DNA of 64,000 bases, taken from Sphingomonas sp. 8AM (GTDB taxonomy: Bacteria; Pseudomonadota; Alphaproteobacteria; Sphingomonadales; Sphingomonadaceae). A program made the position numbers and the translations under genes. Shown piece by piece: positions 34,790 to 46,201 of this stretch (position 1 is the first letter of the stretch; each line of letters starts with the position of its first letter). The notes below the pieces were generated by a model that was given only the letters and a program-made list of their open reading frames with translations, did not search any database and was not told the origin of the DNA. The stretch lies in assembly GCF_902506455.1 (NCBI RefSeq), contig NZ_LR733844.1, positions 2,809,303 to 2,873,302 of the forward strand. Reading direction: 5' to 3'.

Positions 34790-35326
34790 GTGACCCGCTT
34801 TCTCTCCTCGCTTCCGCTCGCACTGCTCGTGCTGGCAAGTGCCGCCTGCGTCCCGCGCGCCGTGCCACCCGCACCGGTCGCGCCACCACCGTCCGCGGCG
34901 CCCGCGCCGGCGCTGCTCCCTGCCCCGGCACCGGCCGCCGACTGGCAGGACTGGCCATGGACGCAGGGTGCGTGGCGCTACGTCCGCGACGCCGCCGGTA
35001 CCCGTGCCAGCTATGGCGTGATCGGGCAGACGCCCGCGGTCGAGCTGCGCTGCGACCGCGCCGCGCGCGCACTGCTGCTCTCGCGGCCAGGCAGCGACGC
35101 GACGCCGTTCACGATCCGCACCAGCGCGAGGACACGGAGCGTTGCGACGCAGCTCGCCGCGGGAGCGGTGCCGCAGATTGTGGCGCGCTTCGCACCCGAC
35201 GACCGGCTGCTCGATGCGATGGCGTTCACGCGCGGGCGGTTCACCGTCGAACAACCGGGCTCGACGCCGCTGGTGCTGCCGCCGTGGGCGGAGGTGGGTC
35301 GCGTGATCGAGGATTGCCGCGGCTGA
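34790..35326 (+). CDS. Putative lipoprotein
   Basis: A 178-aa exported protein from GTG 34790. It has a hydrophobic signal (FLSSLPLALLVLASAAC) ending in the lipobox LASAAC, so it is probably a lipoprotein anchored at Cys20. A Pro/Ala-rich linker (VPPAPVAPPPSAAPAPALLP) leads to a compact domain with WTQGAWRYVRDAAGTRASYG and two Cys (LRCDRAARALLL, VIEDCRG) that may pair. I do not recognise the family. It stands alone, upstream of the tiny ORF region. Confidence 0.7.
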   Translation: MTRFLSSLPLALLVLASAACVPRAVPPAPVAPPPSAAPAPALLPAPAPAADWQDWPWTQGAWRYVRDAAGTRASYGVIGQTPAVELRCDRAARALLLSRPGSDATPFTIRTSARTRSVATQLAAGAVPQIVARFAPDDRLLDAMAFTRGRFTVEQPGSTPLVLPPWAEVGRVIEDCRG

Positions 35327-35454
35327 TCCGGTGTCCGGGCGCGAAGTCGTAGATGTTTGCCCAGAACGCGACGTATTACAAGGCTTGTATCGTAACGCCT
35401 TCCCCCTCACATTGTGGATGCGGCTGACGCGGTCGCAACTGTTATCAACCAGCG

Positions 35455-35468
35455 AAAGGAGGTGATCC
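35455..35468 (+). promoter_or_regulatory. Extended Shine-Dalgarno, 14 nt complementary to 16S 3' end
   Basis: AAAGGAGGTGATCC is the exact complement of the conserved 16S rRNA 3' end (GGATCACCTCCTTT), far longer than the usual 4-6 nt. Its GGAGG core is 7 bases from the ATG of an 18-codon ORF at 35470. Confidence 0.85.
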
Positions 35469-35469
35469 G

Positions 35470-35526
35470 ATGTCTCATGGTTCAGCAATGGGGTCGGTTC
35501 AGTTCGTTCGGGAGATGCGCTTCTAG
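35470..35526 (+). CDS. 18-aa ORF with an exceptionally strong ribosome binding site
   Basis: Encodes MSHGSAMGSVQFVREMRF. The ATG lies at ideal spacing after the 14-nt anti-16S match, so it is very likely translated. There is no codon run for one amino acid, so it does not look like a classical amino-acid attenuator peptide. It is followed by two RNA hairpins (35598-35639 and 35643-35682). It may be a leader peptide, a small regulatory protein, or a translated part of a regulatory RNA. I do not recognise it. Confidence 0.55.
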   Translation: MSHGSAMGSVQFVREMRF

Positions 35527-35597
35527 GCATCGCCGGCCCGCCGCGGGAGGATCCATCCTCTCTTCAACGTAGCGGGACAGGTGGTGCCTGGAGGCCA

Positions 35598-35682
35598 ACA
35601 TGGTCTCCCGGGCTGGAGCTCTCCGGCCGCTGACCATGTCAAGGGGTTGTCGGGCGTCCGTTTACGGACGTTCGGCAACCTC
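35598..35682 (+). ncRNA. Two consecutive RNA hairpins, the second terminator-like
   Basis: Hairpin 1: ACATGGTC (35598-35605) pairs with GACCATGT (35632-35639) and encloses a further GC-rich stem. Hairpin 2: an 18-bp stem with a few GT pairs (35643-35660 with 35665-35682) around TTTA, followed by TTCTCATATCT. The second looks like the 3' end of a short transcript that starts upstream of the 18-aa ORF. Alternatively it could be a leader of the receptor gene 253 bases downstream. Confidence 0.55.
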
Positions 35683-35730
35683 TTCTCATATCTGGCGGAG
35701 GCTGGATCGCAGGCGCTAGGCCCACGCACC

Positions 35731-35935: not shown

Positions 35936-38101
35936 ATGTCCGTCCGTCATACCAGCAGCTTCCTCACCCTCGCCGCCCTGCTCGCCGCCACATCGGCCAT
36001 CGCGCAGCAGCGTAGCGAGGCGGCCACGCCCGACGACGTGATCGTCACCGGCCGGCAGGCACCCGACCTCGCCAGCGCCGGGACGAAGTCGGCACTGCCG
36101 CTCGCCGAAACCGCACAGTCGATCACCGTCGTCACCGGCGACCAGATCGAGGCGCTCGGGCTCCAGAATCTGAATCAAGCGCTGCGCTTCGTCGCGGGCG
36201 TGACTCCCGAGACGCGCGGATCGAGTGCCGAGGTCTACGACCAGTTCAAGCTGCGCGGCTTCGACGCGCCGGTGTTCCTTGACGGGCTGAAGCAGTTCGG
36301 CAGCACCACCGGCTATGCGATCCCGCAGGTCGACGTCTCGCGACTGGCGCGCTTTGAAATTCTCAAAGGTCCGGCGTCCACGCTCTACGGCCAGTCGAGC
36401 CCCGGCGGCCTGATCGCGCAGTCGAGCAAGCTGCCGGTCGACCTGCCCCGCTACGGCTCGGTTGCGGGCACGTACGGCGAGTATAACCTCTACCGCGTCG
36501 ACGCCGATCTCGGCGGTGCGGCGGGCAGCGATGTGCTGTGGCGCGTCTATGGCAGCGCGAACGGCAGCGACACGCAGCAGCGCTTTGCCAAGCGCGAACG
36601 GCAGACCGTGTCGGGCGCGGTGACGATCGGCAACGGGTCGCGCACCACCTTCACCCTGCTCGGCACCTATTCGCACGATCCGCATAACGGCGCGTATGGC
36701 GTCTTCCCGGCGCTCGGCACGCTGGTCGACAATCCCAACGGCAAGCTATCGACGCGCTTCGACGGGGGCGAGGCGGGCAACCGCTACCAGCGCGAGCAAG
36801 CGGCGGGCACGTACATCTTCACGCACGATTTCGGCGGTGGGTGGCGCTTCCGCTCGTCGGGCCGTTACCAGAACGTCACCGCGCAGCTCGGGCTGGTCTA
36901 TGTCAGCGGCGCGCCGGTGGCCGGCAGCACGCGCGTCTACAACCGCGCCAGCTATGCGACCGATGAGGAGCTGAACAACTGGACCTACGACAACCAGCTC
37001 GCCGGCGTCGTGCGCACCGGCCCGGTCACGCACCGGCTGTTGTTCGGCGTCGACCGGCAGGTCGCGCATTCGACCGAGACCTATCAGTTCGGCGGCGCTA
37101 CCCCGCTCGACGTCTATGATCCGATCTATGGCACGATGATAGTGCCACGCACTCCGGCGCAGGTGCCGAACGGCTTCGGCGTAGACACCATCGACGCACG
37201 GCTGCGTCAGCAGGGCATCTACGCACAGGACCAGATCGAGCTGGGCGCGCTGCGCGTCACGGTCGGCGGCCGGCAGGACTGGGCATGGGGGCAGCAGGAC
37301 GGCGGCACCCCGAAGAAGGACGACAAGTTCACGTGGCGCGCCGCGGCGCTCTACACCCTGCCCTTCGGCCTTGCGCCCTATGTCAGCTATTCGACCTCGT
37401 TCGAGCCGCAATCGGCGACGGTGCGGCGCGGTGACGGCTCGCTCGGGATCGCCGACCCGTCGTTCGGCAAGCAGATCGAGGCGGGCGCGAAGTTCAGCGT
37501 GCCCGGCACGCCGATCCTGCTGTCGGGCGCGTGGTTCCGCATCGACCAGACCAACGTCGTCACCTCGACCCCCGACTTCTCGATCTCGCGTCAGACCGGT
37601 GAGGTCCGCTCGACCGGTGTCGAGTTCGAGGGCAGCGCACCGCTCGGCCTCGGCTTCACCGCGCGTGCCGCGTACAGCCGGCAGCGCGTCCGCGTGACCA
37701 GCGACCCGCAGGACCCGTCGCGGGTCGGGCGCGGGCTGGAGACGGTCGGGCGCGGCGGTGCGTCGCTAATCCTCGACTGGGCCCCCGAGCGCGGCTCGTT
37801 CCACGGGCTCGCGCTGGGCGGCGCGGTGCGGCATGTCGACGAGGTCTATGCCGGCGTCTACACGCCGCCCGAGAACCCCGCCGCCGCCGCGCCGCTCAAC
37901 AGCCCGTCCTACACCGTCTATGACGCGTGGGCACGGTTCGATCTCGAGCGGCTGAGCCCGTCGCTCAAGGGGCTGACCGCCTCGGTCAATGCCTCCAACC
38001 TGTTCGACAAGACTTACATCACCTCGTGCTTCGCCAATTATGCGTGGTGCTGGTACGGCAATCGCCGCGTCGTACAGGGGACGATCGCCTATCGCTTCTG
38101 A
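35936..38101 (+). CDS. TonB-dependent siderophore-type receptor
   Basis: A 721-aa outer-membrane receptor most like the FhuA/FoxA/FpvA siderophore group. It has a signal peptide (FLTLAALLAATSAIAQ), a TonB box-like DDVIVTGRQ, a plug with PLAETAQSITVVTGDQIEAL, FKLRGFDAPVFLDGLKQFG and FEILKGPASTLYGQSSPGGL, then a barrel ending in VVQGTIAYRF with the terminal Phe. Two Cys lie close to the C-terminus (SCFANYAWCWYG), typical of siderophore receptors. A ribosome binding site (AAAAGGGG) precedes ATG 35936. No siderophore synthesis gene or PepSY reductase is adjacent, so it may take up foreign siderophores. Confidence 0.9.
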   Translation: MSVRHTSSFLTLAALLAATSAIAQQRSEAATPDDVIVTGRQAPDLASAGTKSALPLAETAQSITVVTGDQIEALGLQNLNQALRFVAGVTPETRGSSAEVYDQFKLRGFDAPVFLDGLKQFGSTTGYAIPQVDVSRLARFEILKGPASTLYGQSSPGGLIAQSSKLPVDLPRYGSVAGTYGEYNLYRVDADLGGAAGSDVLWRVYGSANGSDTQQRFAKRERQTVSGAVTIGNGSRTTFTLLGTYSHDPHNGAYGVFPALGTLVDNPNGKLSTRFDGGEAGNRYQREQAAGTYIFTHDFGGGWRFRSSGRYQNVTAQLGLVYVSGAPVAGSTRVYNRASYATDEELNNWTYDNQLAGVVRTGPVTHRLLFGVDRQVAHSTETYQFGGATPLDVYDPIYGTMIVPRTPAQVPNGFGVDTIDARLRQQGIYAQDQIELGALRVTVGGRQDWAWGQQDGGTPKKDDKFTWRAAALYTLPFGLAPYVSYSTSFEPQSATVRRGDGSLGIADPSFGKQIEAGAKFSVPGTPILLSGAWFRIDQTNVVTSTPDFSISRQTGEVRSTGVEFEGSAPLGLGFTARAAYSRQRVRVTSDPQDPSRVGRGLETVGRGGASLILDWAPERGSFHGLALGGAVRHVDEVYAGVYTPPENPAAAAPLNSPSYTVYDAWARFDLERLSPSLKGLTASVNASNLFDKTYITSCFANYAWCWYGNRRVVQGTIAYRF

Positions 38102-39438: not shown

Positions 39439-40608
39439 GAGACCTCTGCGAAAGTAGCTGACAGGTGTGAATGGATGTGATTCGATGGCGCCGGTAAGGA
39501 GCGGTCGGGTTATGGATCAGCACGGGTTTGCGGAAGCGTTTTTGCCGGCGGGTTTTGGTCGCAACGCGCGGCTGGAGCGTATTGCGTCGCTGATCGACTG
39601 GGCGCCGCTGGAGGCGTTGGTGCGGCGGGTGCGGCCTGGCACGACCGGTCGGCCTCCGTACCGGGCGCTGGCCATGTTGCGCGCGCTTCTGCTCCAGCAA
39701 TGGTACGGGTTCCGATCCCGGACTGGAGGAAGCGCTATCCGACCGCGTGTCGTTCCGGCGGTTCTGCGGACTGGCGCTGGAGGAGCCGACGCCGGATGAG
39801 ACGACCTTGTGCCGGTTCCGGCTGGCGCTGGTGGCGGCAGGGCTGGGTGATGCCCTGTTCGCCGAGGTATCGCGCCAGCTCGATGCGGCGGGCTTCATGG
39901 TCAAGGCGGGCACGCTGGTCGACGCATCGCTGGTGGAGGCTGCCGTGCGCCGGCCGGCGGACGGCTCCAGCCCCAAAGGCCAGGAAAGCCGTTCGCCGCA
40001 TGACCCCGACGCCAACTGGACGCGCGCGGGGCGCGGCAGGACGCTTTTCTTCGGCTACAAGGTGCATGTCGGCGTGGACCAGGGATCGGGCATCATCCGC
40101 AGCCGCGCGGTGACGCCGGCCAAGGTCTATGAAAGCGAGGTCGCCGACGACCTCTTGATGGGCGACGAGAGAAGCTTCTACGCTGACAAGGCCTATGAGA
40201 AGCAGGCTCGGCGCGAGGCACTCAAGGCACGAGGCATCAAGGACCGCATCCAGCACCGCCGCGTGCGCGGCCAACCCGTGCTGCCTCGCTGGCAGACCGT
40301 CCGCAACACGCTCATTGGTCGCGTGCGGACCGCCGTCGAGCGCACCTTCAGCGAGTTGAAGCGTGGACCTTACGGCTTTGTCCGCATGCGCTACCGCGGC
40401 CTGCCACGCTGTTGCCTGCACTTCGACCTGACCATCATCGCCTATAACCTGCGACGGGCCGCCGGCTGATCGTCCTCGCCCACCCATCAAGGTCCGGCGA
40501 CACCGACCGCTGTCAACGCCGCAAAAGCTGCCCCACCACCTGCCGACAGCGGCAGGACTGGCTCATCTCTTCTATCACACCAGCCTCAACGCCTTTCGCA
40601 GAAGTCTC
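39439..40608 (+). mobile_element. IS5-family insertion sequence with frameshifted transposase
   Basis: About 1,170 bases. The left end GAGACCTCTGCGAAAG (39439) and right end CTTTCGCAGAAGTCTC (ending 40608) are inverted repeats matching at 15 of 16 bases. GCATGCGC flanks both sides (39431-39438 and 40609-40616) and may be the target duplication, although 8 bp is longer than usual for the IS5 subgroup. One transposase gene, split by a frameshift, fills the interior. Confidence 0.85.
39512..40469 (+). pseudogene. IS5-family transposase, frameshifted
   Basis: The DDE transposase is read in two frames. The first (from ATG 39512, MDQHGFAEAFLPAGFGRNAR) covers the N-terminal IS5 domain, LIDWAPLEALVRRVRPGTTG and LAMLRALLLQQWYG. 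At about 39703-39707 the frame shifts. GSDPGLEEALSDRVSFRRFC continues in the next frame through to 40469, and this half contains the catalytic residues: Asp in TLVDASLVEA, Asp in FYADKAYEKQ and Glu in ERTFSELKRGPYGF. The shift needs a +1 change, not the -1 slippage of two-ORF IS elements, and the intact family has one ORF. It is therefore probably inactive, unless the base call is wrong. Confidence 0.8.
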
Positions 40609-44881: not shown

Positions 44882-46201
44882 TCAGATCGCCGCCAGCGCC
44901 TGCTCCATGTCGGCGACCAGATCATCGGCATCCTCGACGCCGATCGAGATACGGACGAGATTGTCGGTGATGCCCAGCGCCTGCTTCCGCTCATCCGCGA
45001 CCGACAGATGCGTCATGCCTGCGGGGTGGCTGGCGAGCGTTTCGGTGCCGCCGAGGCTGACCGCGAGCTTGGCGATCTTCAGCGCGTCGAGGAAGCGGAA
45101 CGCCTCGGGCTCGCCGCCCTTGAGGTAGAGCGAGAAGGTCGAGCCGCCGCCGGTACAGTGGCGGCGGTAGATGTCGGCCTGCCGTCCCTCCGCCTCGGCG
45201 AGGAAGCCGAGATAGCCGACGTGCTCGACCTTTTCGTGATCGCGCAGGAAGGCGCAGACCTTCGCGGCATTCTCGCCGGCGCGGCTCATCCGTAGCTCCA
45301 GCGTTTCGAGGCTGCGCATCAGCATCCACGCCGTGTTGGGGTCACAGATCGTGCCGATCGTGTTGCGCATCGCGCGGATCATGTTGATGAGCGGCTTGGC
45401 GCCCAGCACCGCGCCCGCGACCAGGTCGGAATGACCGCCGGCGTATTTGGTGAGGCTGTAGACCACCGCGTCGGCGCCGTGCTGGAGCGGTTGCGACCAG
45501 AGCGGGCCGAGGAAGGTGTTGTCGATCGCGATCGGCGGCAATTCCTCCGCGCCCGCGAAGATCGCGTCGCGGCTGGCGCGCACCGCCTCGACATCGACCA
45601 GCGCGTTAGTCGGATTGGCGGGGCTTTCCAGATAGATCAGCGCAACGCGGCCGGCGTCGTTCGCCTGCTTCATGACCGCGTCGATCTCCTCGCGGGTCGC
45701 GCCGGCCGGGAAGTCGAGCCAGTTCACGCCGAAGCGGCCGAGCACGCGCGCGATCAGCGTCTCTGTCGCGGCATAGAGCGGGCCGGAGTGGACGATCGTG
45801 TCACCGGGGCGGACAAGTGACAGGAATAGCGTCGCAATCGCCGACATGCCGCTGGAGAAGGTCAGCGCATCCTCCGCCCCCTCCCAGATGCCGAGCCGGT
45901 CCTCCAGAATCTCCTGATTGGGACCGTTGAAGCGCGAATATACCAGCCCCTCGGCACCGCCGGGGCGCTTTCCGGTGACGCCTTCGAAGTGACGTTTGCC
46001 CGCCGCGGCATTCGGGAACACAAACGTCGAGGTAAGGAACACCGGCGGCTTGAGCGCGCCCTCGGAGAGCGCGGGGTCATAGCCGTGGCCCATCATCAGT
46101 GTCGCCGGCTTGAGCTTGCGGCCGCCGATCGAGTCGATCTGCGCCTTGGGTGAGCGGCGCGTCTCGACGCCGGTCAGATCGTCTTCGGTCGGCTTGGTCA
46201 T
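44882..46201 (-). CDS. Cystathionine gamma-synthase/methionine gamma-lyase family enzyme
   Basis: A 439-aa PLP-dependent Cys/Met metabolism enzyme. The cofactor Lys is in VVYSLTKYAGGHSDLVAGAV. Other family motifs are PPVFLTSTFVFPNAAAGKRH, RFNGPNQEILEDRLGIWEGA, TFSSGMSAIATLFLSL, VHSGPLYAATETLIARVLGR, LIYLESPANPTNALVDVEAV and VSLGGTETLASHPAGMTHLS. It is about 40 residues longer than typical CGS because of the N-terminal extension (residues 1-45), a form common in sphingomonads. Synthase and lyase activities cannot be told apart from sequence. ATG 46201 precedes MTKPTEDDLTGVE. Confidence 0.9.
   Translation of the reverse strand: MTKPTEDDLTGVETRRSPKAQIDSIGGRKLKPATLMMGHGYDPALSEGALKPPVFLTSTFVFPNAAAGKRHFEGVTGKRPGGAEGLVYSRFNGPNQEILEDRLGIWEGAEDALTFSSGMSAIATLFLSLVRPGDTIVHSGPLYAATETLIARVLGRFGVNWLDFPAGATREEIDAVMKQANDAGRVALIYLESPANPTNALVDVEAVRASRDAIFAGAEELPPIAIDNTFLGPLWSQPLQHGADAVVYSLTKYAGGHSDLVAGAVLGAKPLINMIRAMRNTIGTICDPNTAWMLMRSLETLELRMSRAGENAAKVCAFLRDHEKVEHVGYLGFLAEAEGRQADIYRRHCTGGGSTFSLYLKGGEPEAFRFLDALKIAKLAVSLGGTETLASHPAGMTHLSVADERKQALGITDNLVRISIGVEDADDLVADMEQALAAI

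Follow-up and report, generated by a model that had tools for sequence, protein, structure and literature searches.

A predicted stand-alone RNA related to CC2171 in Sphingomonas, with a hairpin-masked 14-nt anti-16S segment and a short open reading frame of constrained length

The stretch of Sphingomonas sp. 8AM DNA analysed here, 64,000 nucleotides long and referred to as the window, almost certainly contains an independent RNA gene related to CC2171 (Rfam family RF01867), as judged by sequence comparison. It is highly probable that this RNA combines two helices, P0 and P1, with a constrained short open reading frame (ORF), whereas its function as a switch gated by the 30S ribosomal subunit is proposed tentatively, with the balance tipping slightly against it. 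For the explanation as a whole, namely a stand-alone RNA gene of ~270 nt (predicted at 35420-35690) that is a relative of CC2171 and would act as a switch that opens on pairing with the 16S tail, the chances appear about even. Support for the structure is good; for the mechanism we offer an inference.

The locus is marked by a 14-nt segment on the + strand (35455-35468, AAAGGAGGTGATCC), read directly and then re-extracted, which forms an extended Shine–Dalgarno (SD) sequence complementary over its full length to the 16S 3′ end of related records, GGATCACCTCCTTT. A 39-nt hand-typed query found this 3′ end in 209 plasmid records, among which are Sphingomonas paeninsulae and 15 from Sphingobium; no 16S gene was found in any of the five genomes searched for one (the own genome and four related ones) with a search that succeeds in 9 of the 14 controls. 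Counting both strands of the 3.77-Mb genome, the 14-mer occurs once, at the window locus, against a chance expectation of ~0.01 (hand estimate, 66% G+C assumed). Seven nucleotides separate its GGAGG core from the ATG at 35470, which opens an 18-codon ORF (MSHGSAMGSVQFVREMRF; 35470-35526, + strand) ending in TAG at 35524-35526. Reading of the sequence thus confirmed the 14-nt match, the 7-nt spacing and the 18-aa ORF of the original prediction. The two hairpins that it placed after the ORF both exist, with the corrections that the terminator-like stem has 20 bp and not 18, and that the first arm belongs to a multi-helix fold and is not a simple 8-bp hairpin.

The RNA is flanked upstream by an ORF ending at 35326, which we take to be lipoprotein-like, and downstream, on its own strand, by a presumably TonB-dependent-receptor-like ORF (35936-38101). 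On the 3′ side of this receptor gene, overlapping transposase-like ORFs at 39467-40469 probably represent, in our assumption, an IS5-type insertion sequence. Elsewhere in the window, ARAGORN places a tRNA-Arg(CCG) at 46019-46100 (− strand), which is absent from the Rfam scan at the gathering score.

Relatives of the element are widespread in the class. When 61 genomes were searched with a 261-bp query (35440-35700), matches came from 35 of the 37 genus genomes and from none of the 24 other genomes of the order. With the pattern AAAGGAGGTGATCC-RNTGTCTCA and at most three mismatches, 88 of 385 class genomes are hit, usually with a single copy, versus 4 of 385 for the reversed pattern; at most two mismatches leave 57 of 398 phylum genomes, which by hand count are 55 of 135 inside the class and 2 of 263 outside it, and none for the reversed pattern. 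Homologous regions were thereby found in other Sphingomonadales, on whose existence the original prediction had been staked. At least 120 stretches carrying the element were obtained in a scan of named genomes, and the 80 matches listed come from Sphingomonadales, Hyphomicrobiales, Acetobacterales, Caulobacterales and other Alphaproteobacteria; among the matches listed are also two MAGs with no name more precise than Proteobacteria, and one labelled Cellvibrionales. The contig with this last label, from a gammaproteobacterial MAG, carries locus L141 and may be a misbinned alphaproteobacterial contig. On plasmids, no related DNA was found as a near or distant match. As the searches started from the anti-16S motif, or from a model containing it, the invariance of the motif is overstated.

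At the gathering score, an Rfam scan of the window returns a single tRNA and no RF01867. The best Rfam match by E-value in the 601 bases scanned is RF01867 (33.6 bits, E 2.1e-5), below that family's gathering score of 75, and the RF01867 model applied to the own genome has the window locus as its sole hit (33.6 bits, E 3.2e-5). The original prediction had matched the element to no known family, a statement that this distant match supersedes. The cmscan alignment spans only 35446-35539 and uses pairs unlike those of the consensus fold described below. The 5′ ends of both RNAs share the motif CGAAAGGAGGUGAUCC-RNUGUCUCAU, which is identical at 35453-35478 save for the start context. The window copy has a covarying hairpin (35641-35684) at which its transcript would end. 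Beyond what RF01867 contains, it possesses a 5′ hairpin and a 3′ domain, made up of P2-P5, that covaries. In the part of the RF01867 model shown, which leaves 85 positions unprinted, the SD is unpaired except for two short-range pairs, and the visible portion of the entry files the family as an sRNA with no mention of an ORF.

Among loci picked from other orders, 13 of 18 score above 75 (75.5-93.3 bits). All 14 chosen, mostly divergent loci match RF01867 at E ≤ 0.1, of which 12 lie at 28-54 bits, L071 at 57.3 and L091 at 75.5. At E ≤ 0.001, the model matches 69 of 290 class genomes (10 above the cut-off) and, out of 14 control genomes, only Caulobacter vibrioides. The family is wider than its cut-off allows, as in the genus 110 of 121 genomes match at this same E-value and 3 of 121 pass. 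Among the matches listed, genus scores form two groups, one at 54-84 bits (40 matches from 37 genomes) and a remainder at about 28-45 bits, and the window match belongs to the lower-scoring group. A match of at least 54 bits is carried by 37 of the 121 genus genomes, in some beside a low-scoring copy; genome G010 holds both kinds (68.9 and 34.6 bits), and the upper-scoring copy L202 (G010:C1:805104-805255) has the canonical arrangement. The window RNA is thus a divergent relative of RF01867, probably a paralogue, and lies below the family threshold.

As for published work, a Mesorhizobium member of RF01867 is a 215-nt RNA-seq product in the accessible part of PMC5596092, and the corresponding part of PMC11701678 lists RF01867 among the families improved, by one covarying pair. 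For the CC2171 RNA, the literature searched offers, in the sections available and the supplement of PMC4117421 aside, no description of a function, an ORF, 16S pairing or SD masking; the available sections of PMC5082802 and PMC5521070 contain nothing on a CC2171-type RNA. In Caulobacter, two earlier predicted ncRNAs are stated to be translated, with no names given in the text available, and ncRNAs come mostly from intergenic, untranslated regions, which counts against a translated-RNA reading (PMC4117421, main text in part).

Alignment of the genus upstream regions suggests a promoter with a CTTGTAT-like −35 motif (CTTGTA, 35384-35389, + strand) and, in most sequences, a CACATT-like −10 motif (CACATT, 35408-35413, + strand). 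The spacing of 18 nt would place transcription start at ~35420. The predicted transcript 35420-35690 folds at −145.5 kcal/mol (z −8.1), a value equalled by none of 200 shuffles. In alignment A1 (30 genus sequences) the consensus fold has 66 pairs, 23 with compensatory cells; before the covariation count, ten of the weaker consensus pairs were swapped for the ten pairs of P1, written as a pseudoknot. With P1 included, 96.8% of cells are paired versus 35-53% for slid versions, and double changes affect 22 pairs versus 12.2 in shuffled alignments, the observed values being reached by none of 500 shuffles; this score is favoured, because the structure was derived from the same 30 sequences. The double changes are located in P3, P4 and the terminator-like hairpin; the pairs of P0, P1, P2 and P5 either do not vary within the genus or do so on one strand only.

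All helices lie on the + strand. At the start of the predicted transcript, a 5′ hairpin (35419-35437) pairs 35419-35425 with 35431-35437; six of its seven pairs are changed on both sides among 29 distinct sequences, with 94.3% of cells paired versus 28.5-46.6% in slid versions. P2 joins ORF codons (35510-35516) to 35603-35609, with all cells paired (100%) and one-sided variation in 5/7 pairs, and P3 joins the last two codons (35519-35523) to 35591-35595, with 92.7% of cells paired and both-sided change in 3/5 pairs (for example UA 13, GC 12). The variable arm P4 (35537-35576) is changed on both sides in all 11 counted pairs. Within it, the CAACG of an internal loop or bulge (35565-35569) is nearly invariant though the helix sequence drifts freely, and this segment could be a binding site. 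P5, the hairpin GCUGGA/UCCGGC (35612-35627), has 100% of cells paired and four of six pairs that never vary. The intrinsic-terminator-like hairpin of 20 bp (35641-35684, −33.8 kcal/mol), followed by CTCAT, shows both-sided change in 8 of 15 counted pairs.

In the consensus fold, P0 masks the SD by pairing the SD and start (35456-35470) with codons of the ORF (35494-35508), and 11 of its 12 pairs are without variation in the genus. Since P0 and P1 hardly vary in the genus, their covariation rests on a class-wide comparison, whose sequences are related and hence non-independent. Loci L042 and L052, which have no real start context, were left out of the P0 and P1 tests and of the neighbour count, as loci that were too short, duplicate or without a hit within three mismatches were left out of the counts. 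For P0, the start context was defined as the two bases 5′ of the ‘TG’ in the start codon; the ORF was then searched, inside a 32-nt window, for the complement of CC together with this context. The expected partner accompanies AG (CTGG, 0.90, n=59), GA (TCGG, 0.90, n=63), GG (CCGG, 0.86, n=7) and CT (AGGG, 1/1), with other-type partners at up to 0.29, 0.22 and 0.43 in the AG, GA and GG rows and one in the single CT locus. The rule is broken by AA, with its own partner at 0.29 and TCGG at 0.93 (n=14), and by TA, with its own partner in 0/2; TG has its own in 1/2. Energy swaps agree for GA and GG, agree only partially for AG (GG at −16.6 equals own at −16.5) and do not agree for AA (own −11.7, GG −14.4); against shuffled ORFs, the own P0 has a mean z of −1.5. 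On this comparative evidence, the SD-masking hairpin of the main context types extends over the start codon's first base, and paired changes maintain it. New as a reading of these sequences is that codons of the ORF itself take part in the hairpin masking the anti-16S/start region, the partner changing along. Such a hairpin would explain the recurrence of T-W-I/V in GUG-start peptides, whose codons would supply the partner strand of GAUCCAG.

P1 connects a strand in the P0 loop, CAUGGUUCAGC (35476-35486, + strand, codons 3-6), with GCUGACCAUG (35629-35638, + strand), which stands directly 5′ of the terminator-like hairpin and is invariant in the genus; the 5′ strand shows compensatory changes between class groups. 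Exact complements downstream are found for own versus swapped segments at 0.417 versus 0.062 for 6-mers and, more weakly, at 0.115 versus 0.019 for 7-mers (35 groups). If the complement must adjoin a called terminator, the anchor of this test (called in 161 of 177 loci), the values over 34 groups are 0.453 versus 0.014 for 5-mers, 0.288 versus 0.007 for 6-mers and, weaker again, 0.073 versus 0.005 for 7-mers; an exact 6-mer complement beside the terminator is absent in 22 of the 34. The segment variants CAUGG, CAUUG, CAUCG and CAUAG each occur with their own partner. The energy-swap test over the whole 3′ region is weak, own being better in 48 of 80 cases (mean −12.5 versus −11.9 kcal/mol); a clear outcome came only from the exact-complement and the terminator-anchored tests. 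The RF01867 model pairs CAUuGuC with GaCaAUG just 5′ of its terminal hairpin, which corresponds to P1 of the window RNA; that the start-proximal strand pairs at this same place in the window is found by comparison, the Rfam alignment having used other pairs. P1 is already in the RF01867 model and, to go by the covariation, also holds in the window's divergent kind, changing in step. With the P0 loop paired to the strand 5′ of the terminator, P0 and P1 are best explained as a pseudoknot or as alternating helices.

The ORF is kept in length. Every one of the 30 genus loci L002-L031 has an ORF of 18 codons, and 155 of 163 distinct loci have a frame-0 ORF of 15-40 codons versus 63 and 86 for the other frames, a tally in which L042, without real start context, is still counted. 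At loci with an AG or GG start context, the frame-0 stop falls at codons 18-27 in 65 of 68 versus 8 and 10 in the other frames; as far as named, these 68 are nearly all non-Sphingomonadales, L128 being a Sphingomonadales MAG. The stop codon itself varies across the class (TGA 82, TAA 59, TAG 22). For 57 distinct 18-codon ORFs of the sphingomonad type, pN/pS is 1.55, counted without ORF pairs of more than 12 differences, and differences at codon positions 1, 2 and 3 number 1905, 2017 and 1244, the third position being lowest; the set was picked for a stop at codon 19, so that stop position is uninformative in it. This ratio gives no sign of the purifying selection on the peptide that a dual-function sRNA calls for, and peptide sequences differ from order to order. 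A frame that is kept while the peptide drifts can be read as selection for ribosome transit or occupancy together with the RNA fold formed by the codons. A length-constrained short ORF in RF01867-related RNAs is, on these alignments, a new observation. Six loci (L034, L037, L099, L129, L142 and L214, with L099 and L129 from Azospirillum) have an ORF of 55-59 codons with a hydrophobic, signal-peptide-like start, which may be a real secreted-protein or lipoprotein gene.

Predicted energies indicate how the proposed switch might operate. The anti-16S segment pairs with the 16S tail at −25.6 kcal/mol, versus −13.6 with its ORF partner; the P0 hairpin has −18.3 and P1 −15.0. Folds with P0 forced, P1 forced and no constraint reach −145.2, −143.1 and −145.5 kcal/mol, respectively. 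The unconstrained minimum masks the SD by a register-shifted hairpin and not by the consensus-register P0; when P1 is forced, some of the SD pairs with the leader. An ordinary short SD would probably lose to P0, whereas the complete 16S tail of a 30S subunit would win by strand displacement; the exceptional length of the anti-16S segment would be explained by the need for the full tail to open P0. The 30S subunit would then translate, or park on, the short ORF, the peptide being unimportant, and ribosome transit or occupancy would open P0, P1, P2 and P3. In this way the RNA would serve as a gauge of the translation-competent 30S subunits available, and its output in trans might consist of an exposed 3′ domain, RNA stability or 30S titration.

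Several other explanations have to be weighed. According to the original prediction, the element could be a leader for an ion- or iron-related gene downstream, i.e., a leader or attenuator of the TonB-dependent receptor gene (35936-38101). This is hardly credible. The gene is on the same strand in the window and a short ORF followed by hairpins would suit an attenuator, but no downstream gene of constant kind and direction was found: over 163 loci, a simple ORF caller assigns the nearest downstream ORFs to 105 clusters, the largest of 12, with 86 on the same and 77 on the opposite strand (opposite in 11 of 29 in the genus only). A cruder comparison of neighbours also spoke against the leader. 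Upstream, one neighbour is common to 42 of 174 loci, and among the matches listed (14) all are from the genus. The small independent or dual-function RNA also envisaged by the original prediction gains support from this neighbour turnover, from the promoter- and terminator-like sequences, from the constrained ORF and from the covarying helices. The element may also hold ribosomes, as was likewise suggested there. A type I toxin mRNA with long-range SD inhibition would share SD masking and 5′-3′ pairing with the hok and aapA mRNAs; it is very improbable, as hydropathy speaks against it (a strongly hydrophobic 15-aa stretch, as a toxin family would show, occurs in only 12 of 184 peptides and not in the one encoded in the window), and the RNA is nearly universal in the genus. 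An mRNA that has a very strong SD and encodes a functional micropeptide would account for the kept start codon, first codons and ORF length, and for the 56-59-aa peptides with a hydrophobic N-terminus of the Azospirillum-like members. It is disfavoured by the pN/pS of 1.55, with third positions least different and peptides varying between orders; moreover, many of the kept codons fall in P0, P1, P2 and P3, so that this reading is distinctly improbable, if less so than a toxin.

Two further alternatives, which are unlikely to a lesser degree, accept a stand-alone RNA and assign it another role. The RNA could be a ribosome parking or titration RNA, in which the segment holds the 16S tail of free 30S subunits or of immature 16S and translation is irrelevant. 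The strength of the 14-nt pairing is consistent with this, P1 sits where an initiating 30S subunit requires a single strand, and a P0-free state lies within about 2.4 kcal/mol of the minimum; nevertheless, the ORF frame is clearly constrained and a very high RNA abundance would be required, and we consider titration quite improbable. Somewhat better placed, though still unlikely, is a conventional trans-acting base-pairing sRNA of the CC2171 type, its ORF being dual-function or incidental and the 16S complementarity merely driving that ORF. RF01867 is indeed filed as an sRNA, the fold is compact with a terminator-like end, and coding sRNAs are said to be common in the part of PMC5521070 available. 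An incidental ORF, however, leaves unexplained that the genus has a single invariant stretch made up of the anti-16S, start and P1 5′ segments, and that ORF length is held class-wide.

A broader form of the 30S-gated switch would be a widespread alphaproteobacterial RNA family that senses free 30S subunits by toehold-like strand displacement, with the 16S tail as ligand, the RNA's own codons mimicking the anti-SD in the hairpin to be opened, and translation of an unimportant peptide switching the fold. This generalization is speculative and, on balance, we would not expect it to hold. An RNA that occurs across many orders of one class, pairs with the full 16S tail, conceals that site with its own codons and retains an ORF whose peptide drifts would tie ribosome supply directly to RNA regulation. 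The present comparison makes the orphan Rfam family RF01867 a testable object.

Known systems share single features with the window RNA. Type I toxin mRNAs of the hok/aapA type combine SD masking with long-range 5′-3′ pairing; they differ in that most peptides of the window RNA's relatives are not hydrophobic. The extended SD of Staphylococcus aureus resembles the anti-16S segment in that the 16S tail pairs past the core SD toward the start codon; in the part of PMC13009471 available, it is a feature of many protein genes and adds two pairs in the structure shown. In contrast, the window RNA offers 14 pairs, is self-masked, stands alone and encodes a peptide that is not conserved. Structured RNAs carrying a short ORF are also known from SgrS/SgrT and RNAIII (PMC5521070, in part). 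The peptides of SgrS/SgrT and RNAIII are functional, whereas the 57 sphingomonad-type ORFs compared gave no sign of purifying selection on theirs, and it is the frame, together with the fold that its codons would form, that appears to be kept.
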